Shown piece after piece: positions 18,562 through 42,600 of a stretch of DNA of 64,000 nt. The DNA comes from Branchiostoma floridae. Lineage: Eukaryota; Chordata; Leptocardii; Amphioxiformes; Branchiostomatidae. Below the pieces are notes generated by a model, which ran no database searches, was not told where the DNA came from, and saw nothing but the letters and a program-made list of their open reading frames with translations. Within the stretch, counting starts at the first letter, position 1; every line of letters starts with the position of its first letter. The translations under genes and the position numbers were made by a program. The stretch lies in assembly GCF_000003815.2 (NCBI RefSeq), contig NC_049986.1, positions 17,001,375 to 17,065,374 on the forward strand. Reading direction: 5' to 3'.

Positions 18562-21500
18562 ATGGGTGAGAGCCATCAGAGTCAGGAGGAGGAGGGGGAG
18601 ATGGAGGGACTGTGCTGCTGTGAGTACATCAACACTCAGGGGGAGCGCAGCCACCTGCTCATGTCCTTCTGTGACTGTGAGGACCTGGACAGTGCTGCAG
18701 ACAGGTAAAACACAGTCCCTATATTTTTAGTAATAATGTACAGAAAACAGATAAGGGTACAATTGTACACAGTCATGTACATGTAGTCACATATTACTGT
18801 AAATGCAAAAACTTTCGCGATAGTTTAATCAAAATGTTCACGGTTTTCGTGGTGGCTGCTTCACCGCGAATTTAAAACCACCACAAACATTTTTCCATGG
18901 CAGTAAGAGACTACAGTGTATTGTGCTTGAAAAGTCCTTATTCCTGCTACCGCAAAATTAAATCCCGCGATCTTAAAAGTTAAATGCATTTACAGTAGCT
19001 TGTTTTAGGCTGTGGAGCCAGTGTGTTGTTCTCCACAGACTGTAAATACGACATGGTATTGAAAGGCAGAGCCCATCCCTCTCCTTCCACCATCTCCCAG
19101 CTTCCCAGTTGCAAGTCAGGTACTCAAATTTACACCTGTATGAAATGTGCAAAGTCATGTCAAGTGCCATTCACAAATATAGCAACTATCTAGGAATGCA
19201 AGGAATCAAAGGCATGACCTCCCTATCTCATGTCTGTTAGCCCCAGGCCATTCGGCCAGTGAACACCATGGACAGTCCCTATAGAGTTTTAGATAAGGGC
19301 TGGTATCCTTTTGGGAGAATGAAACATTTTCCCTTTAATAGAGTTCAGATCTGTATGCTTCCTAAAAAGTCTAATTAGATTGAAAAGCTGATAATCAAAC
19401 TCAAATCAAGCATGTACAACATGTCTCTTGTCACTTAAATCAACACCCTGTCTTTCTGTGTTTGTATCCCTCTATCTTTCAATTAATGTTCTCTTTTTTT
19501 CTCTCTCTCCTTTACTTGTAAATAGTTATTCATAGGTCAGAGAATAGACAGAAAAAGGTCTGCTAAAACATGAATTTCAAACTGTCACCATTTTGTTTCA
19601 AGATTTTACAGTTACAGTAAAAGAATGCTATAAATGTGGCAACTTGTTTTGAGCCACATCTTTGTCTGAAATGTTTGTAACTGTAGAAAACCTGGTGACT
19701 TTCAAAACATTCCTCAGAGCAAATCAGTAAGCCCCTCTCCTGCTGATGTCAAGTTCCCAGCTTTGCAAACAAGTCCCACTCTTTGAAAATAGTGACAAGT
19801 TGCACAATGTTGCCTGCCTATAGCTAGTATAAGCAATAAAAGTTTTGTTTCTGAATGCATGGTTTGTATTACAGTATAATTGAATTGAAGCTCTCCCTCA
19901 TTGACATTTTGCCAAGCCTGTCTCCAATCAATGCTCTTTATGCCAATATGTCTTCAAAAATTCATGAGGCTTTTGTATCAAGGATAGGAGGACAGTTGAA
20001 ACACGTCTATTTCAGTCCATGAAATGGGGGCTGATGTCATTTGAGTGACAAATGGCCGTGCTAGTCATTGTCAGTCTATCTGTATGAAGGACTAAGGAAA
20101 GATATTCCCAGTTCACGTCTGCTTGCAAAGTCCCACTGCTTTGCTGTGAGGGTTTGGTAAGGATCTGTAACCTGAAAGGGCTTGCTGACTGCTTTGTGCT
20201 ATCTTCATATAATGATAAGATGGCCCTTTTGATAGAACGCGAATGTCTACATCTTCCAATATGTAGGGAATTATAGGGGCAGTTCGCTAATCAGTGATCA
20301 CTGATTTTAGAATTAGTCATGTTGGTTCTGTTATGTATTATACTGTGGTCACCTCATTTCATCACACCTAACATTTTCATGCTGACCATGGTACAGCTAC
20401 TGACTGTCATGACTTCTTTTTCAGATTGTCATATTTAATTCCTAGTTTTTCAGATCTGGTTTTAGGTTTCCATTACATAATCATATCGTATTACATGTGT
20501 AGCCAACATATGGCATTACTCATGACATTATGATTTAGTTCTTCCGCAGATGACCTCTCATGGATATGTATCACTTTAGTTTTATCATCTTCCCAGATGT
20601 TACAGATTTTTGTCTTTTTCTTTTAGTTTCCTGTAGAAATGAGTGGTTATGACATTATCTATTGCCCATGCCGGCATGTTATCATTGTTACTAGACCACC
20701 TTGACAACTGTGTTTCCACACTCCCAGGAATCGCAAACATCGCGTGGTGTCAGCGTGGAACTACCAGGAATTTTACAGGAACTACAAGGAAGGGACGAAG
20801 CTACACAACCACTCCTATATCAAACGGTCGCCAAGGTGGATAACCAGCAATAATCTTGATTTTCTCCTTTGTTATATGTAAGTTTGTTTGTTTCCTTTCA
20901 GCCTTTAAAGGACAACGTTTCAGGACTGAAATGTTGGGAATGGAGAAGGAGGAAGGAGTTATCAAAACCTGTCTTTGAAAAATTTGTACTTTTTCTTTAG
21001 ATCTCAACAGTGCATGTTTTGCATGAACGTTTTTTTTTTCCTTTAACAGTATCATCTATGGGCAGCTCTTTTCTCCTATATTTAAGTTTATAGTATCATC
21101 ATGTCTTGTGCGACCTTTTGAAGGATGTAATACTATATTACTATTATTAGAACCTGTTTTTATTTCATAGGTTTGATTTTGGTATATCTGACGTGAGAAA
21201 AAATGAATGCAATTTTTCTACAGGGTATTCAAAAGACAGAAAGTTCCCAGCAGTAACTACGAGGCACTATACATGACCCTAGAAGACCGCTTACGCATCC
21301 CCTGGTGTTCTGGAAAGGGGGCCAAACAAGTCAACCCCCAAGTCATCCCACCTCTGCTCCTGGTGCCACTGTCCCTCAACATTGCTGCTATCCACCCCCT
21401 GCTGACTGCAGTGGTACTGGTCCTCCTCCCCATCCTCCTCATAAGGTAGGAAGGATGCATTATGTCCTAAGAGGGGTCAATGGCTAGCTTTATGCTATAC

Positions 21501-24500
21501 TAACAGGAATGTAAACAGAACTCAGTATTGAAATTGTGTAGATTGTTTGTTTAATGCAAATGCAAGCATTTGAAAGAAGTTTTCCATCCAAGCTGAGCTT
21601 AGGGTAGGCACTACATGCATTTCTCCAAACCATATATATGGACACATTCTGGCTAGATCCAGACTTGTACAGAAACATTTTATGGCCTGCTTGTATTTTG
21701 TATGCTTGTAATATTTTACAATGTGCAGCATTTGCACCTCTGTCCCTGAATGAAATGTTGCAATATGTTCTCACAGGTACTACTTCCGATTCATCAAAAT
21801 ACGCCAAAGCGGGCCTTTCTTCCTGAGTTGGGGCCTCGTGTCCGTCGGTTACCTTTACTCGCTATACCTCCGTCTTGTGGTTCCCCTCGGAATCGTGACA
21901 TCCACAGAAACATGCCTCCTCACGGTCTTGATGGGCGCCATGCTCGCCGCGTTAACTTCAGCCAAACAGAACCCCGGCTTTATCAGCGGAAAAAACAAGT
22001 TAGGAGCTGACAGTAAACAAGGTCCTGCCTTCCCAAAAAATGGGGTAAAAAATACACACGAGGAGAGCTTGCAAGGTAATGGCATCCAGCTTAGGAGCTC
22101 AGCAGACAGAAACCACGCCATCTCAAATCCTGTGCAGAACGGTGGCAAAGTGGGCAAGGCAAGTTCAATACAGTCCACCGACGCCCCCTATCAGAATGAC
22201 AGCACTATGCAGTCCACCAAAAGGCCCCTCCAGAGGAATGGAAACAACAACAACAGGGACAAGCAGGACCTGGGTCAGGATGCAGTGATTGATGTAGAAG
22301 GACAGAGAGTCGCAGCTCAGCCCCTCTGGTGCCACGTGTGTAAGATGCCCAGGCCACCTCGAGCTGGACACTGCATGATCTGTAAGCGTTGTGTCTTAAG
22401 GCTGGACCACCACTGTATATGGTAAGTTCAAACCAGGGCTATTTCCAGGACCTGTCAGTCCATCCTAGGACACAAATGTCACCAGGTCCATCCAAAAATT
22501 GATCTTTATGACAAGAAATTGATGAAAATGTATTTTTCTTCTTATCAAAAATGACAAATACTAACAATATGGGGTCCATAACAATGATTGAGACATACAA
22601 AAATTTGATACTGGAGACAACCCTCAGGCACATTATGTCTGTTAGCATTTCTGTACCTTTAATGCTAATGATATCAACATTTTAGGAAGTCCAGCTGGCA
22701 CATATTTTGCAGTTTGTCATCTAAACTATAAACTAGAAGGTTTCAAACTGCCGTGCCTCCAAGGCAACAAAGAGAAAAGTCTGTTAGACTCTAAAATGTA
22801 TATTTAGAAGTTGTATATGGAAATCCTACTTGAGCTGAGGCCATGGAAAATACCACAAAACCACATTATGATTGTCATATGATGTCTGCCTTCAGGATCG
22901 ACCACTGTGTGGGGAAGAACAACCACAGGAGCTTCCTCCTGACACTGGTGCTGTTCATGTCGTCAGCTGGGTACGGAGTCTGGCTGTCCCTCAACAGCAC
23001 CTGTCCTGGCTGGTACAGCAAGAGGTGGATCCCCTACTGTCCTCAGGCGTACAGCACATCCAGGTGTGTTATACCGTACTGTCCTCAGGCATACAGCACA
23101 TCCAGGTGGGTTATACCGTACTGTCCTCAGGCATACAGCACATCCAGGTGGGTTATACCCTACTGTCCTCAGGCATACAGCACATCAAGGTGGGTTATAC
23201 CCTACTGTCCTCAGGCATACAGCACATCAAGGTGGGTTATACCCTACTGTCCTCAGGCATACAGCACATCCAGGTGGGTTATACCCTACTGTCCTCAGGC
23301 ATACAGCACATCAAGGTGGGTTATACCCTACTGTCCTCAGGCATACAGCACATCCAGGTGGGTTATACCTTACTGTCCACAGGCATACAGCACATCCAGG
23401 TGGGTTATACCTTACTGTCCTCAGGCATACAGCACATCCAGGTGGGTTATACCTTACTGTCCTCGGGCATACAGCACATCCAGGTGGGTTATACCTTACT
23501 GTCCTCAGGCATACAGCACATCCAGGTGGGTTATACCTTACTGTCCTCAGGCATACAGCACATCCAGGTGGGTTATACCTTACTGTCCTCAGGCATACAG
23601 CACATCCAGGTGGGTTATCCCTTAATGTCCTCAGGCATACAGCACATCCAGGTGGGTTATACCTTACTGTCCTCAGGCATACAGTACATCCAGGTGGGTT
23701 ATGCCTTACTGTCCTCAGGCATACAGCACATCCAGGTGGGTTATACCTTACTGTCCTCAGGCATACAGCACATCCAGGTGGGTTATGCCTTACTGTCCTC
23801 AGGCATACGGCACATCCAGGTGGGTTATACCTTACTGTCCTCAGGCATACAGCACATCTAGGTGGGTTATACCCTACTGTCCTCAGGCATACAGCACATC
23901 CATGTGGGTTATACCGTACTGTCCGCAGGCATACAGCACATCCAGGTGGGTTATACCTTACTGTCCTCAGGCATACAGCACATCCAGGTGGGTTATACCT
24001 TACTGTCCTCAGGCATACGGCACATCCAGGTGGGTTATACCTTACTGTCCTCAGGCATACAGCACATCCAGATGGGTTATACCTTACTGTCCTCAGGCAT
24101 ACAGCATATCCATGTAAATTGTTTGTAGTATTTGTTGGCAAATCTTTTCTACTGCAGAAAACAGCCACTGAAATACTGCAGATTATTGGATCGTAGGTTC
24201 CCATAGACCAATCTGATGGCTTGTTTTAACAGAAGTAACTAGTGATGAATGATTTTCTTTCCACTCCCCCCAGCTTTGCCCCAGCCTTCACTCTGATGGT
24301 CCTGACTACCATGTCAGGTATCCTCATTTTATTGGTCAATACATTTCTGTTTGCCAATCGGTTGGCTTGTTTCAAAAGAAGATCCAATAGTAACAGTTGT
24401 TCTTTCCATTTCCCTCAGTTCTGCCCTAGTCTTCACCTGCTGCTATTACACCCTGATGGTACTCACAGCCATGTCGGGTATCCTCGTCTCACAACTCATC

Positions 24501-24680
24501 AACATCTCCTGGAACATGACTGGCCGCGAAGAGCGCGTCGCCATCCGCAACAAGACCTACAAGGTTCGCTGCTGCGGCTTCTGTGTCTACACCGACAAGT
24601 ACGACAAGGGCTGCGTACAGAACTGGTGGGAGTTCAGCCAGAAACCCAAACTTGAGAAACCAGCAGTACAGATGGTGTGA
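18562..24680 (+). CDS. ZDHHC23: ZDHHC23-like palmitoyltransferase
   Basis: Five coding exons: 18562-18704, 21224-21445, 21777-22421, 22896-23063, 24419-24680, all with GT-AG introns and phases 2, 2, 2, 2; 479 residues (human ZDHHC23 is about 409). The N-terminus has the CCCEY and CDCEDLD cysteine-rich blocks and DRLRIPW seen in ZDHHC23. Two hydrophobic stretches lie in exons 2-3. The zinc-binding CRD begins [15 protein letters not shown] and holds the catalytic DHHC at residues 332-335, split from [10 protein letters not shown] by intron 3. Two more membrane segments follow, then NMTGREE, resembling the TTxE motif. It should S-acylate proteins at Golgi or plasma membrane; the human protein acts on BK channels and binds nNOS. 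The ~80-residue polar insert before the CRD makes it long. Intron 4 begins inside a minisatellite that copies the exon end. Confidence 0.85.
18795..18997. mobile_element. MITE, TACTGTAA-family copy c
   Basis: Starts TACTGTAAATGCAAAAAC and ends TGCATTTACAGTA, with inverted 'TTCGCGG'-like and 'CACCGCGAA' interior blocks. It lies in ZDHHC23 intron 2. Confidence 0.75.
23064..24113 (+). repeat. 42-bp minisatellite carrying the intron 4 splice donor, 25 copies
   Basis: Exactly 25 units of 42 bp (1,050 bp) in unbroken register, each GTGGGTTATACC...TACTGTCCTCAGG...ACATCCAG with 0-4 changes. The last 39 bp of ZDHHC23 exon 4 (23025-23063) is itself a shorter, diverged unit, so the array grew from the exon/intron junction. 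Nearly every unit repeats the ATCCAG|GTGGGT donor. Because 42 is divisible by 3, long ORFs arise in all plus frames and one minus frame; these are artefacts unless upstream copies are spliced in. Confidence 0.95.
24274..24340 (+). pseudogene. Relic duplicate of the start of ZDHHC23 last exon
   Basis: The intron end plus exon start at 24206-24345 is duplicated at 24356-24505: both have 'ggcttgttt..aagaag..', a pyrimidine tract, CAG, then a Phe-Thr-Leu-Met-Val-Leu-Thr..Met-Ser-Gly coding block. The upstream copy lacks 15 nt (five residues of the membrane segment) and has no downstream exon body, so the copy at 24419 is the functional one. Usage of the relic as an alternative exon is possible but would disrupt the C-terminus. 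Confidence 0.6.
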
Positions 24681-25067: not shown

Positions 25068-25735
25068 AGGCATGTTCAGAACCAGGAACAGCAGCCTTGG
25101 TACTAGAGACAACATCTCTTAGTATGTGGATAGCATGTTCAGCACTAGGGGCAGCACCCATGTTACTGAAGACAGCATTCCTCGCATGAGAATATCATGT
25201 TCAGCACCAAGGACAGCAGCCACCTTGTCACTAGAGACAGCATTCCTAGCTTGAGAATAGCATGTTCAGAACTAGGCACAGCACTTTCAGCGCTTGAAAT
25301 AGTATTCTAAGCATGTGGATAGCATGTTTAGCACCAGAAACAGCACCTTGTCACCAGAGACAACATTCATAACTTGAGCATAGCATGTTTAGTACCAGGG
25401 ACAGCGACCATAGTACCACAGGCAGCATTCCTGGCATGGGGATTTCATGTTCAGCACCAGAAACAGCACCCTTGTCACCAGAGACAACATTCCTAGCATG
25501 AGAATAGCATGTTAAGCACTAGGGACAGCACCCTTAGCGCTAGAGACAGCATTCTCACCATGAGAATAGCATGTCCAGCAACATGCACAGCAACCATAGT
25601 CGGTAGCTTTCCTAGCATGAGGATATCATGTTCAGCACCACGGACAGCACCCTTGGCATAAGAGAGCATCCTTAGGATAACATGTTCAGCACCAAGGAGA
25701 GAACCAATTGAAATATACAGCATTGTAAGCATGGC
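25068..25735. repeat. Imperfect ~62-bp minisatellite, about 11 copies
   Basis: The unit centres on 'AGCATGTTCAGCACCAGGGA' followed by CAGCACC..AGAGACA.CATTCCTAGCATGAGAAT. Starts recur near 25070, 25134, 25197, 25260, 25322, 25384, 25446, 25508, 25569, 25627 and 25680. It lies about 400 bp downstream of the ZDHHC23 stop, possibly in its 3' UTR. Confidence 0.85.
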
Positions 25736-33600: not shown

Positions 33601-36600
33601 AACAAATGACATTGGTGTGGTCTGAACTGACCTGCTCCTGTGCCTCGGCCAGCTCTGCCTCCCTGACCGCGAGGGTCTCCCCCAGGGAGGTGATGGTGGT
33701 CTCCTGGTCCCTGATGGAACCCTGGGTGATACACCGTGTTGTATTCTAATTTATTACTAACCGTACATGATAACTGACTGACCTGCTCCTGTGCCTCGGC
33801 CAGTTCTGCCTCCCTGACCGCGAGGGTCTCCCCCAGGGAGGTGATGGTGGTCTCCTGGTCCCTGATGGTGCCCTGGGTGATACACTGTGTTGTATTCTAT
33901 ATTGACCGTACAGGATAACTGCACTAACCTGCTCCTGTGCCTCGGCCAGTTCTGCCTCCCTGACCGCGAGTGTCTCCCCCAGGGAGGTGATGGTGGTCTC
34001 CTGGTCCCTGATGGTGCCCTGGGTGATACACTGTGTTGTATTCTAACTAACCGAACAGGATAACAGACTAACCTGCTCCTGTGCCTCGGCCAGTTCTGCC
34101 TCCCTGACCGCGAGGGTCTCCCCCAGGGAGGTGATGGTGGTCTCCTGGTCCCTGATGGTGCCCAGCTGCCGGTCAGTCTGCAGCTCCAGCTCCTCCAGCC
34201 GCTGCTGAAGGTCAGGGATCACGTTATTCTCCAGCTCCAGACTGGACACCAGGTACCGCAGGTGGTCACCCTCTGGACAAATACAAGTGTAATATTGTAA
34301 TAAGAAATGGCAGTTAAAAAGTACCATCCTCCGTAGTGACCACAAGCAACTATGGAGAATGGTGCTCAGGGTTAGTAGTCAGATCTTATGACTCTGTTAT
34401 GGGTGTTGAATCCATTTTTTAAAGATTAGTTGTAATTTTCAAGGTAAATTTTACAGTGTCTCCTAGGTCTTATTAAACTCTCCCTATCTTGGAAATCTCC
34501 CAAAGTATCCAACACCGAGGAGAATAAATGTACAATCTGAAAATAGGGAGTTTACAGTTCTTCATATTTACCTTTTGAAACATCCCTTAGCTGTTCTTCA
34601 GTCTCACTTGTTGTGGTTTCCAGTTCAGTCACCTGTTCTTTCAGGGAAGACAACTCCCCGTCCCTTGATGACATCTGTATTGGAAAAAATGTTTTCCATA
34701 GTCAGCATACTCAACAAACAGCAAAAGAAAAATGAACCTATAAAAGTATAAAGGAAAAGTTATCATAGACTAGTATAGGGTATCTACTTTACTTACTTAG
34801 CTTATGATCACAATTGAATTATCACTACATCTTGTTAGTATCTAGTAGTCTCTATGTTCACTATCTAACAGCTTTAAACAAGCTGCAAACCTACTTGTTT
34901 TTTTAGGTCCTCAGAAAGAATCTTGGCATCTTCCAGAGCATGGGCCAGCTGCAGATTCTCCTTTTCATGTCTGCTTACCTCCACCTGAAGATAATGTACA
35001 ACAGGCTTCATTGTTATGATCCTACATGTATTTGAAACTGGAACATTACATTAGCTGCAAATAATAACTAGTACTGACGTGTGCCAAATGGCCAGTGTAT
35101 AATGAGTGCATGATGAGCAAAAAAAGACAGAAAAAAGGCACCAGAGAGCCTGCTATGGCTGCTACCAGATGGCCATGTATAAGAAAGCTCCTTTGTATAT
35201 TAAACAGCAAGTATACTACATCATACTTACAACTACTGCTGCTGGTCTGACAGGCTCTCTACTGACCTTGAGCTGCTCTTTCTCCTCCTCCAACCTGCTC
35301 ATCTGATGCTCCACCTCAAGCTCTTTCTCCAAGTACTCTTCTTTCAGGTTCTCTAACTGGGTCTGGAATGGGCAACACAGCAAACTGAGTCTAGTCTACT
35401 CCGCATAAAAATTCTTACATGCACATGGAGGTCCTGATATCAAACAAAACTTGCTAGGGATCCCAAACCTACACAGGTGCACCAGTTTTTCCCAACATAA
35501 AAGCTATCTTCCCCAAAACTCAAGACCACAGCGTGTCAAGGACAAAAGATACAAAAAAACTTCAGTAGCAGCAGTACCGAGGTTAGCCCCTAGGAGGCAC
35601 AAATTTTGTGCCCATAACATCATCATCATCATCATCAGTCGGCTGCTGTGCAGTCGGTCACGATTCTATTCCACCTCAGTCTGTCGGCAGCCAATACAGC
35701 TATAGCAGTGGGGTTCAGGTCGCCCTCCGCGTCCCCCAGCAGGTTTTGTATATACGTCAGGTAGTTCGTCTTCTGACGACCGGGGCGTCGTTTGCCGTGG
35801 GAAGGGACATACAAGGCATAAGTCCGCAGAGGCTCTTCTAAAGGCATTCTAAGAGCATGTCCAATGAAGCGTAATTGGCGTTGCCTGACTTTGCAGATGA
35901 GAGGCTGGGTGTTTGTCACTCTGTATATCTCACTGTTGCTAACACGCTGGAGACGCTTAATGTTTAACATGATTCTGTAGCATGATGTAGCAAACGAGTT
36001 TATCTTATTCTCCATGTCAGACGACGGTACCCAAGATTCACATCCGTATAAAAGCACTGGCACACAGGTAACATTAAAGAGCTTGATTTTTGTGGAGGTG
36101 GGAAGTGAAGTACTACTCCAGATCTTTTGCAGTTTCCAGAAGGCAGTCCATGCAAGAGCCCTTCGCCTAGTGAGATCGTTTTTACTGGATGCCATCATGC
36201 TACCCAGGTATCTAAAGTTGGTTACATTTTTGATTGGCTGGCCGTACACCTCCAGTGGTGGCTGCGGGCTGCAGTTGATGGTCATGTACTCAGTTTTAGG
36301 GACGCTGATGACCAGGCCCAGTTGTGTCCCTGCAGCAGCAGTTCTGTTAAGTTGTTCTTGTGCTTTGGGGATGGAAGACTCTAGCAAGGCGATATCGTCA
36401 GCAAAGTCCATGTCGTTTAAAATCCTAGCGGGATATCTTCTAGACTGACGAGGGTGAGTAACTATGCCAGAGTCAATATCTTCTGTCGATCTTCTCATCA
36501 GAAAGTCGATGAGCACAATGAACAAGAAGGGAGCAAGGACATCACCCTGCAATACTCCTGTGGTGACTTGAAATGGGTCAGAGATGTTACCATCCACCAT

Positions 36601-39600
36601 AACAGCGCTTTTGGAGTTGTTATAAAGAACATTAATGGCATTGACAATTGTGAGCGGGATGCCGTAGTGGCGGAGAACAGCGAGCATAACCTTCCTATCG
36701 ATCGAGTCAAAATAACACCTACCCACATAACACCTACCCACATGACAGACATCACCACACTATCCATAGGTTTTTAAGTCACTGCTGCACAAACATTGTA
36801 CATTCATGTATGCACACACATACAGAGCCCAAAAAAATTTTCATGAGTCAATTCTTTTCCAGTAGTAGGAACTGCACACTACTGACCAGTTTGTGTTGTG
36901 AGTTAGTCTTGTCAAATTCCCTGGCTGTCTCCAGTTCTGTGACCTTCTGTTCCAGAGTGTTGACCTTGTCCTGTAAGTGCCTCTGTGTGTCTGCAGCCTG
37001 TTGTTGAGCCCTGCTCAGTTCTGTGCCATGTTGTGTTTTCTACAGGAAGACAACAAACGTCTTCTTCTTGACATGCTAAAGTTCATCCCAACTAAATCTA
37101 GGTTCTAGAACCTTTCCACTTGGGAGAGAAGGCACAAACAGCTCAACAGTGAAAGATTGTGTAACACAGGCTAACTTAGGTTCAGCTTGTCATGTCAAAA
37201 GTTTAAAGACAGTCAATGTCAGTCAAACTAAAGCTATCTTGTTATTATAGTACATCCTCATAGTGCATGTATAGTGTTGCAACTGCTATTTTCTCCTCTA
37301 TCATATAATATCAATTATCACAACAGAAATTTTCCTCCTGTTTAAAAAAAAATATGCTAGTAAACTATTATGAAGGCCTTCAGCAATCTCTCACTGAATA
37401 TTTCAATATCACATAGTTAAAACACAATGTAAATAAGATATCAAATACCTGTTGGTCTATCTGTTCTTGTCTCTCACTCGCTAATCTTTCATTGTCTGCT
37501 GCCTGCTTTTCTGACTCCAGTAGTTTAGTTTCTAACTCTGACATCTGGAACAAACATACAAAACATGTTAAGCTTTTTAGATTTCTGTATTTTATATCAA
37601 GAGGCTTTTCATTCTCCATAATAAAGACAAATCAAATTAAACTTTGATAACACTACTCCAACTATTAAGGTTACCTTCTTTTGGAAAGCTGCTCTTTGCA
37701 ATTCTGCTTCTTTCTCAGTTCTTGTCAACTCTGCACTGTCTTCTGCCATCTTTGTATTCAGGTTGGCAATCTGCAGACACAAGACATAGATTAGATTCTA
37801 AAGACATAGTATCAGAACATGAATGTGATGATTGTGCCAGTAGCCTATGAAGTACTCACCTGTAGTTCAAGGCTGTTGATTTTCTCGCTCCAGTTACTCT
37901 TGATGTCTGTCAGCTGCTGACGAGCCTCCTCTAGTCTCAACTCCAGCTGTTTTCTCTGAATAGGTCCACAAAACAAAATCATAATCAAAGATAGAATGTA
38001 TGACTGTGTATCATGATATCAGCCAAGCAGAAACAGCGGACGTATTTCAACAAATAGCCGGTCAGGGTAAGACAAGCTATCCATCAGTCCATCCATCCAT
38101 TGGTCCTTCAATTCATCCCTTCATCCAATAAAGCATCGGTGCATTTGTCCATCTGTAAATCCATCCATTTGTCCCTCTATACATCCATTCATTCATCCAC
38201 TAAATAATGAATGCATCTGTGCATTTGTCCATCTGTAAATCCATACATACATACATACATCCCTCCACCAATCCATCCATCCGTCCGTCCTCTCTTCCCC
38301 CTTTATTTTTTCCCTCTCCATCTGTCAATCCAACCGTCCATCGGTCCCTCAATCCATACATCCATCCCTTCATCCACTAATGCATCTGACAATGAGCATT
38401 TGTCCATCTGTAAATCCATCCACCATCCCACTACCAATCCATCTGTTCATCCCCCTTTCTTTCTCTTCCCTATCTCTATCTGTCATTTCTTTATCAGACC
38501 CACCTCGTCGATGAGAGCCTGTAGTTTCTCATCCCCAGACATGTCCTCCTGGTCCTGCCTCCTGTTTAATGTGGAGACTTTCTCCTGGAGATGCTGGATC
38601 TCATTATCCTTCTCCTCCAGCTGAGTTTCGCACTGGGGACAAGCACACGAATTCAGTCAGTCACATTTTACGACAACAAAACCCTGCATCTTGATATGAT
38701 TTACTTAATGTTGTTCCCAAGATTATAGGTATGGTTTTGATGCTGTACATATGTCAATGTAGTATATGTATTATAACTTTTAGTGGTCAAAAGACACTTT
38801 TCATGGATTAAAAACTCCAGAGGCATGCAAACATATACAATTCTAAAAATGCAGATTAGCAACTAGATACATTAAGCACAACTTAATGTTTAGATTGCTC
38901 TTTACTCATTTTGTGTGTTTTGTATTTATTTAGATTGGTAAAAGGAAAAATTATTATTGAATTGTATAGTGGCCACCTGGACAGTAGGCAATGTGCAGCT
39001 GAGTAGCATAATTACCAGTTTAAATGAATTATTCATCTGGGTGCATGGATGAAATTATTTCAGTTTTAATACTTAATCATTAAATGCAGTGTGCATGTAC
39101 AAAAATATGTAGATTGCAGGACTGTATGTTACGTGCAAAAGTAAGGGGAACAGCCAGGGTTTGTTATTTGGGAGTGGAAAAATGGGAGCATAAGTTGGAA
39201 TGTCAGAGGCAGGGGCAGAGCATACACAGCATGCAGCATTGTCATCATGATGTTACAGAATTAAAGCAAAGACACTCGGAAAATATCACCTTATGTTTGA
39301 AAACGTCATTTGTTCTCTTTAGAGCATCGTAGTCATCTTTGAGCTCATTGTGTACACGCTGTAGGCTGGAGTAGTTGGCTACTTGCTGAGAACCAAACCA
39401 GCAAAACACCCCATTGAGAAAGTGTGCGTTTTAGAGGTAGAAAAGAGCCACGTGCAAGATGATAATTATATTAGTACACCAGTTTCACAAATGACTACAT
39501 TCAAGTTACCCCTAACTATTGATATTATCCTTCCTACCATGACAAGAATTTGTTAGCTGAATTCATTCTTGTTTAATACTTCCCAAATTGATAATCTGTT

Positions 39601-42600
39601 ATACCTATTTATGACATGCACAATTATCAGGCATGCTACAAAATAATTTTAAAATTATCAGATTATAAGAGTTTTATGTGTGCAGTGTTTTCTGAGACCT
39701 CTTCACTACAAACTTGTAATCACAGCATTTCTTGATCTTTCTTTTACCACCTAATGTTTCAACTGCAAACTAAAAACCACTGCAAACTCTCCATTTTCTC
39801 CCTGCCACAAAATCAAATCCTCAGAAACTTTAGGGCATTCACAGTAAGTGAAACTCTACCACCTCCTGTAACTGTTTGTTCAGAGATTGCAGGTTGTCCT
39901 CCAGTGTGGAATGGTTGTCCTCTACTGTCCTGGCTAACTCATCCAACTTCTTTTTCTCCACTTTACATGTGTCCCTGTATATGTACAATATAGCTATACA
40001 TCACTGCATTTCTATTTTATTCATAAAATGTAAAATGTGTACATTTTAAAATGTACATGTATCACAAATATATGATGCGATTTAATTTTACATTCCTACT
40101 ACTGTCAGTTAGTCTATACAGATAAGGACAAATACCTGTACTGTGCAAACAACAACAATACAAAAAAATGTTCAAACAGGCAAAACATATAACTCTGAAG
40201 TTCATGAAACAGTTTAGTGCTTTTACACAAGACCATAGTGTGATATTTTATCATTCTTGGTCTTATTCAACTTAAAGTTAAAGTTAACTTAACACACAAG
40301 GAAAAAGTTGTTAAAATTTTTTCATCTCAGACCTTTCATTTTTCACTGTCTCCAGCTCTTCCTTTAACCTGGTTACTTCAGCTTCAAACTGCTGTGTTTT
40401 CCTGCCGTCCTCAGCAGCCTGTGTTTCCAGGCTAGTGATCTTTTCTGACTTCTGCTGCAGTTCTGCTTGGCACCTACTGAGTTCTTCTTGACTGTTTAGC
40501 AACTGTTGGAAAGGAAGTCATATATGAAGGATCAAGCAAATACAAAAATGTATTGCTTTCTCTGGATTTCATATACTGTACGTCTGTCATTTTTATATAA
40601 CCTCTCTTCTTTCATAATTGACTTCTCTTGAATTTCAATCTTTATCAAGATTTGCTTGAAGGCAATCAATGAAACTTCAGTCAATGTACCTCTGGACCTA
40701 TAACTCTCACTTTAACTCTCTTTTGCATCATAGTGCTATGCTAAGCTTTCTTCCAACACAAAGGTATACACGGATCAAATTTTCAAAGACCACTTCAAGA
40801 TCAATACAGACCAGGCTCTTCCAAACTTAAAAACTCTCTTTGATTGTCTCTCTCTTATTACCTCCATCTTCCTCTCCTTCCTTCCTTTTGTTTGTTATGT
40901 GAATTAAATGTTGATTGGTAATCAGTATTGATTTTGAAGAAAATTTCATTCATGTGTACTTTTGTGTTGGAAGAAAGTTTAGCATTGTGCTATGAATTTA
41001 GTGCTGTCCACCAAGCCTGTCAATCAAATCTCACCATGTGTTCTTTCATTTCCTTAGTTTGTTGTATGTGAATTGAATGTTGTCCAACAAGCCTGTCAAT
41101 CAAATCTCACCATGTGTTTGACCTTGGCCAGCTCCTGAGTCTGGAAGCCCTCCAGCTCCTCCTTATCCTCCTCCTGCTGGTACAGCTTAGCTGTGGTTTC
41201 TGCTGCCCGAGCCACCTGCTTCTGCAGATCGGACTTCTCCTGACAGTGTGCAGAAAACAGTCATGCAATGTCTTAGAATTGTAAAGATAACTCCTACCTG
41301 ATTATGATCACCACAATCTTCATTTACTAAAGATCAAGAAAGACAAACATGTTTGCCAATACAGTCAAACCTGGTGATACAGAAGACTACTCTGAGGACT
41401 GATACTGTAATATCTGGCCAGGTGGTCTTTATGCAGTGGTGGTCACCAGTACAGGATTGACTGTATGATAGTATGTTCAGTAGTATTTAGCACAATCTGT
41501 GACTTAGACTTGTATAGTCATGTTGTTTGTCCACGTACTTTTCTTCTTAACTTAATTACCTTCTCAGCTGCTTCAATTGCTTCTTTGACTTCCTGTGGAT
41601 AGAACAGAAACAAACAGTTAGGCAGAAAACTCTTACAATGTAGCAAAAGATAGACTATGATCATCATGTAAAATTTTGAGTCAGACATTCCTATTTATGA
41701 GTTAACTGTATTTGAACGAAATACAATACAAGTTCCTTCCACAGAGGTCTATTTATTGAAGAAAGAACCTGGTGATCACCTTATCTTTTTTCTCTAAAGC
41801 TAAGTTCATATTTTCTGCCATCTTGGAGCGCTCAGCCTGGTAGCTTTCATTCATATCCTGGATCTTTTTTGCCATACCTGGAAAGTAAAGAGATTTGAAT
41901 AACAGTTCCGTGAATTGTTCAATTTGCAAAATCATGCCTGAAGGCTAATTACATGTGCAGTCTCAAAGTAAGGGTAAAGTAATGAAGTACCTAACACTAA
42001 TGAACAATGAACAATGACTTATAGTATAAGGTACTACATTTACTAATTAAGGGGTTTAACTTCTTCTCTAAAGACAGTGGTTAATGAGCTGTCTTTTGGT
42101 AGTCTACTATTTATAAATAGCAAAGCTCACTACAATAATTGTAACAAAAGGTACATGTAGACATACTGTCCTGTGTGTTCTCCAGAGCCAGTTCAAGTTT
42201 GTCTTTTGCCTTTGTCACTTCCTTCAGTGATGATATGTACTCTGGAAAGACGAAGTTGAGAAAGGTAAAAATATCACTGTTGCAGAACGTTTTCTTTGCT
42301 CTTCTATTCAATAACAATCCCGTCCTTTCTAATGAAGAACCAGACATGGACACAAACTCAAGATCCCAAAGGCAACTATCCTGATGAGATATGGCAACCC
42401 AATGAAATATTTGACTAATTTTCTAATCAAATATGGTTATTAGTATTTTGTGCCATAGATGAGGATTTTGATAACAATTATTATTCTGTGAAATAACAGT
42501 TACTGTTATATCTGTTATTTTTCTTAATCTGTGCAGCTTTTGTTCAGTTTTTAACTGTGACAAGCCAATAAAGTTGGCTTAAATCTTGAATACCTGCCCT

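Follow-up and report, generated by a model that had tools for sequence, protein, structure and literature searches.

Genes and features of the locus

The window, by which we mean the whole analysed stretch of 64,000 nucleotides of Branchiostoma floridae (NC_049986.1, positions 17,001,375 to 17,065,374), carries on its forward strand a ZDHHC23-like gene, one intron of which contains a long tandem array of copies of an exon-intron boundary. The parts of this gene are as follows, the slash in a splice site marking the boundary.

21224..21445, forward strand: ZDHHC23-like exon bounded by AG and GT (spliced model compared with human ZDHHC23)
21777..22421, forward strand: ZDHHC23-like exon with the first part of the DHHC domain (Pfam DHHC on the spliced protein)
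22896..23063, forward strand: ZDHHC23-like exon of 168 nt, whose 3′ end seeds the array (spliced model)
23025..23063, forward strand: exonic 39-nt partial unit, set apart from the 42-bp unit by a few substitutions and one 3-bp indel
23064..23069, forward strand: donor 1, CAG/GTGTGT, presumed authentic (gapless protein junction to 24419; U1 duplex -7.7)
23064..24113, forward strand: donor-type mirage array, 25 x 42 bp, in the intron (TRF and splitting at the donor)
23623..23625, forward strand: TAA, first stop of the exon frame, in unit 14 (frame reading)
24419..24679, forward strand: last coding exon of the ZDHHC23-like gene (spliced model)

If exons 21224-21445, 21777-22421, 22896-23063 and 24419-24679, and these four only, are joined, an open protein of 431 residues is obtained. 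Pfam recognizes a DHHC domain in it at 4.5e-29, and its relatives of solved structure (8 distinct sequences, E 0.001) include ZDHHC9, ZDHHC5, DHHC20 and ERF2. Over 406 aligned columns, the protein shares 36% identity with human ZDHHC23, and the gene was rightly named in an earlier note made from the letters of this DNA. Joining donor 1 to the acceptor at 24419 gives a junction without gaps against the human sequence (YSTSSSALVFT versus YANYSSALSFT). This junction comes after residue 344, between the hydrophobic stretches 301-321 and 345-376, and thus in a loop between two hydrophobic segments that follow the DHHC motif. The earlier note had also put the loop between membrane segments; its numbering, between segments 3 and 4, holds only under a four-segment count, while hydropathy suggests about six segments in total. 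Just downstream of the gene, a diverged array of about 62 bp with higher-order periods of 123 and 247 bp occupies 25070-25723 of the window.

Anatomy of the array

The 25 intronic units of 42 bp (23064-24113) make up 1,050 bp without any indel, directly 3′ of their exonic 39-nt homologue. TRF (23035-24112, period 42, 25.7 copies, 96% matches, 0% indels, score 1960) and splitting at the donor agree with the original description, namely that the exon end is homologous to the unit and that the units continue in register. Ordinary chance as the origin of the array is ruled out by such a score. On average the units diverge by 2.7% from their consensus, 16 distinct sequences are found among the 25, and the last one, unit 25, is the most diverged. 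Neighbouring units resemble each other more than distant ones do, with 1.54 differences at lag 1 and 2.4 at lag 20, a pattern expected from local turnover.

It had been stated that nearly every unit repeats a near-identical donor. This holds for the GT itself, which starts 24 of the 25 units (unit 25 starts with ATGGGT, and a further GT stands at 24114) and is preceded by AG at 23 of the 25 in-register GTs, but the exact site CAG/GTGGGT is found in 18 of 25 only. Unit 1 alone begins with GTGTGT instead of GTGGGT. Within the exon, AGAG/GTGGAT, which lies 39 nt upstream of CAG/GTGTGT, also resembles a donor. A search of Rfam at the gathering threshold and a tRNA scan returned no match. One might also read each unit as a 25-nt GT...AG intron followed by a 17-nt microexon; we rejected this, judging by sequence alone, as too short for the spliceosome.

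The exon frame runs into its first stop, the TAA of unit 14, where the earlier note had placed it (at about 23623), and the protein is still open when 13 inserted units are spliced in silico. Thus, the proposed insertion of 14 residues at a time stands for 13 units, but the donors concerned are 2-14 rather than 1-13, since donor 1 adds nothing. Over the 1,050 bp, the three forward frames contain 1, 1 and 0 stops, one of them in the exon frame, and one reverse frame has 3 stops only. As 42 is a multiple of three, any frame that is free of stops in the consensus stays open. That the exon frame is open is therefore a by-product of the 42-bp unit and does not argue for its use; it is not even the cleanest frame, and nothing indicates that it is specially kept open.

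Pairing of the donors with U1

U1 duplex energies were computed at 26 in-register positions. Donor 1 gives -7.7 kcal/mol, the 18 perfect copies -11.4, three AAG copies -9.9, one TAG copy -9.8, and the decayed sites at 23904, 24072 and 24114 between -1.7 and -4.8 kcal/mol. Thus, 22 of the other 25 positions (-9.8 to -11.4) pair better than donor 1, which is in tension with the view that donor 1 is the one used. A value of -10 is reached by 0.62% (about 25) of the 4023 GTs of the window, and 18 of these lie in the array. Preferential conservation of the donors was not found within the array, as the 9-nt donor window holds 5 of 16 variants where 3.4 are expected.

Mirages in amphioxus genes

Ebner et al. 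2010 (PMC3087553), following Canestro et al. 2002 on Adh3, give the name mirages to amphioxus tandem repeats across exon-intron boundaries. Those described there include, in BflGb6, repeats with a length of 150-160 bp at the exon 2 acceptor and, in BflGb9, a donor boundary duplicated at 157 bp, and boundary repeats of 60 and 108 bp are described for lancelet PGBD5 (PMC3902484). PMC3087553 takes Adh3 data, and RT-PCR on globin genes, to suggest that normal splicing is not interfered with. As far as the excerpts of these papers go, the ZDHHC23 array resembles the cases of Adh3, BflGb6, BflGb9 and PGBD5 in that its unit spans an exon-intron boundary and its extra copies are intronic with AG/GT signals, and it sits in the genome that carries published mirages. 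Both donor- and acceptor-type mirages are known, and the present one is of the donor type. It differs from the published ones in its 42-bp unit, which is in frame with the exon, and in having 25 intronic units against at most 6-7 for the globin and PGBD5 mirages in those excerpts. It is a real, long, in-frame donor-type mirage, and as such belongs to a known kind. The titles and abstract openings turned up by our literature searches do not name this array in amphioxus. With coding VNTRs and tandem alternative donors, it shares the in-frame repeat and a potential choice of donors, while the presence of its repeats in mRNA is hypothetical. Intron gain by tandem duplication of AGGT sites, as outlined in PMC4974935 and by Rogers 1989 (via PMC3087553), is similar in that the duplication carries splice signals, but the ZDHHC23 copies sit in an existing intron and make no new one.

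Other boundary repeats in the same genome

Besides the array, three boundary duplications are found in the window.

24208..24325, forward strand: degenerate acceptor-type copy, 15 nt short, of the acceptor and 5′ part of the last ZDHHC23 exon (the exon-5 duplicate)
33632..34162, reverse strand: donor-type mirage of a golgin-like gene, a 90-nt exon end with three 90-nt copies and donors GTTAGT/GTCAGT
40993..41118, reverse strand: two-copy duplication at 76-bp spacing, with donor ATG/GTGAGA and adjacent intron, at a coiled-coil-like exon

The copies in the golgin-like gene have CACCCAG before them and GTTAGT or GTCAGT after them, are of phase 0-0, and are separated by spacers of 54-61 nt. In pairwise comparison, 0-4 differences are found over the 90 sites of the four exonic stretches, and 4-5, besides gaps, over the roughly 54 sites of the three intronic parts. 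Judged by sequence, these 90-nt copies are candidate cassette exons. The protein is coiled-coil-like with a GRIP match under the Pfam cut-off, and the gene is presumably that of golgin-97.

Elsewhere in the genome, one retrieved locus (L030) has a 158-bp x 4.2 array over the acceptor of a globin exon, and another (L026) has the donor end of a globin exon duplicated at 157-bp spacing; in period and boundary, they fit BflGb6 and BflGb9, respectively, as given in the excerpts of PMC3087553, where 15 globin genes are described against 9 matches in our genome-wide search. At a third globin locus (L029, 1720-1965), the start of the intron after the exon recurs at about 116 bp with a GTAAGT-like site. 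In an ADH_zinc_N-type gene (L039, C8 near 20841340, minus strand), an acceptor-type array repeats the exon start in three upstream copies, two of which have diverged with indels. Of 20 ADH-family loci, at least this one carries a recognisable acceptor-type array.

Silent differences between copies and exons

Within the ZDHHC23 array, 16 distinct variants occur; read in the exon frame, 9 of them are synonymous against an expectation of 3.55 (P 0.001), and 12 are third-position changes. A more cautious count by sites puts 8 of the 12 variable ones at third positions (P 0.006, uncorrected for the three frames). The synonymous share is 4/6 in units 1-13 and 7/12 in units 14-25, small numbers in both parts. 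Since the stop in unit 14 thus makes no clear difference to the bias, exchange with, or descent from, the exon is tentatively favoured over present translation.

The same tendency is seen at the other boundary repeats. When the gaplessly alignable copies of five loci are pooled, 33 of 46 differences are synonymous in the exon frame against 13.1 expected. Outside ZDHHC23, the contributions are 9/11 for the L026 copies (P 0.0004), 8/10 for those of L030 (P 0.0006), 4/5 for copy 1 of L039 (P 0.04) and 3/4 for the golgin-like copies (P 0.05). For L030, the pooled count covers the first 68 exonic nt only, beyond which copy 1 has a 1-nt deletion; there, copies 2 and 3 show two differences to the exon, one silent and one coding. 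Copies 2 and 3 of L039, which have indels, and the exon-5 duplicate of ZDHHC23 were tested outside the pool, with synonymous shares of 3/7 (P 0.35), 3/10 (P 0.69) and 5/9 (P 0.07), respectively, so that no clear silent bias was found in these three decayed copies. It is to be noted that the tested loci are whatever was retrieved and not a random survey.

As controls, 35 local duplications of the same DNA were taken, from which the 5 boundary ones were removed. Of the remaining 30, 23 could be tested; 5 were dropped for having fewer than 4 differences, and 2 long overlapping ones for being aligned to themselves. Three of the 23 touch an exon boundary (the exon-5 duplicate, L029 and 40993-41118). 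Silent bias was found in none of the 138 frames of these 23 duplications at P 0.01.

A certain excess of silent differences is to be expected if a neutral copy is compared with an exon under perfect constraint, but even then the expected share is 0.48, while the four loci other than ZDHHC23 show 24/30 (P 0.0004). Thus, either the copies have been translated, or functional exon ends, perhaps those of other alleles, have given rise to them or exchange sequence with them, or haplotypes have been merged. The lack of a clear bias in the decayed copies limits the argument for exchange. This silent bias, which the excerpts of PMC3087553 and PMC3902484 do not mention for published mirages, was unexpected and is a new lead worth following. 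As its source, translation seems to us less likely than derivation of the copies from the exon or exchange between copies and exon; the bias makes these possibilities testable against each other, which bears on the origin of new introns and exons.

How the array may have arisen, and whether it is used

We consider it likely, with good confidence, that the ZDHHC23 array is an amphioxus mirage that has grown from an exon-intron boundary and is probably ignored by splicing. The founding duplication might have been mediated by microhomology between AGAG/GTGGAT in the exon and the donor CAG/GTGTGT 39 nt downstream, and later expansion may have proceeded by unequal exchange or slippage. Donor 1 would normally be used, and the whole array would be removed with the intron, the downstream donors giving minor isoforms at most, truncated beyond 13 units. 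Functional exon ends, often those of other alleles, would be the source of the copies or their partners in exchange, so that the differences would be mostly synonymous until the copies decay. Counting against this view are the better-pairing donors downstream of donor 1 and the silent bias, which translation would also produce. If the downstream donors are ignored nevertheless, the array is a natural 25-fold test of the choice of the first donor by the spliceosome.

It might also be possible, and we put this forward tentatively as something short of an even chance, that the copies of mirages are not dead decoys but keep a coding signature across amphioxus genes, through translation, be it as cassette exons or as alternative exon ends, or through continual exchange with the exon. 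In that case, mirages would act as reservoirs from which exon ends gain synonymous variation and, now and then, changes at the protein level.

The earlier note had raised a tunable loop, that is, a meaningful use of the in-frame downstream donors by which the loop before the last membrane segment would gain 1-13 repeats of 14 residues depending on the allele. The unit length divisible by three, the 13 open units, the stronger U1 pairing of most decoy donors and the synonymous bias of the array variants all suit such a loop. However, the bias does not clearly fall off once the stop is reached, the remaining forward frames are equally or more open, the donor sequences are not preferentially conserved, donor 1 already gives the gapless orthologous junction (with human ZDHHC23), and other mirages are reported to leave splicing undisturbed (PMC3087553). 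We therefore do not favour the loop and regard it as unlikely.

Less probable still is an assembly artefact, in which the number of copies, or some of the copies, would result from the merging of two divergent haplotypes or from reads that were collapsed or expanded. The published B. floridae assembly is described in the excerpts of PMC7269912 as Sanger-based and haplotype-merged, in which a near-identical 1-kb array could be miscounted, and the copy number given here rests on the assembly; moreover, the draft assembly was aberrant at BflGb6 (excerpts of PMC3087553), and a run of N adjoins the L026 duplicate. On the other hand, PMC3087553 reports a reconstruction of BflGb6 from trace data in which one haplotype has 6 units and the other 3, resequencing supports the PGBD5 case according to PMC3902484, and a simple merge of haplotypes does not give 25 indel-free units that carry private variants. 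No second haplotype was found in the assembly (513,431,437 bases, 431 contigs), in which the array was matched at one place only, as was 21224-22421, the stretch holding the two upstream exons.

That the row of strong donors recruits U1 snRNP, and thereby shields the intron from early polyadenylation or reinforces the weak donor 1, would agree with the 22 intronic positions at -9.8 kcal/mol or better and with the rarity of -10 elsewhere in the window, but the donor window is not conserved above the rest of the unit, and we hold this to be very improbable.

Surroundings of the golgin-like gene

Within the region of the golgin-like gene, an open reading frame for reverse transcriptase (RVT_1, 6e-10) is found at 35635-36759 on the reverse strand of the window, which, from its sequence, probably belongs to a non-LTR element. 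Between 31639 and 60000, the golgin-like gene is found together with an exon for ARP2/3 p16-Arc (Pfam 1.2e-19) and a putatively RPL35-like open reading frame, which has no Pfam match. Golgin, p16-Arc and RPL35 genes are also grouped at human 9q33, and this gene group is possibly a case of conserved microsynteny.
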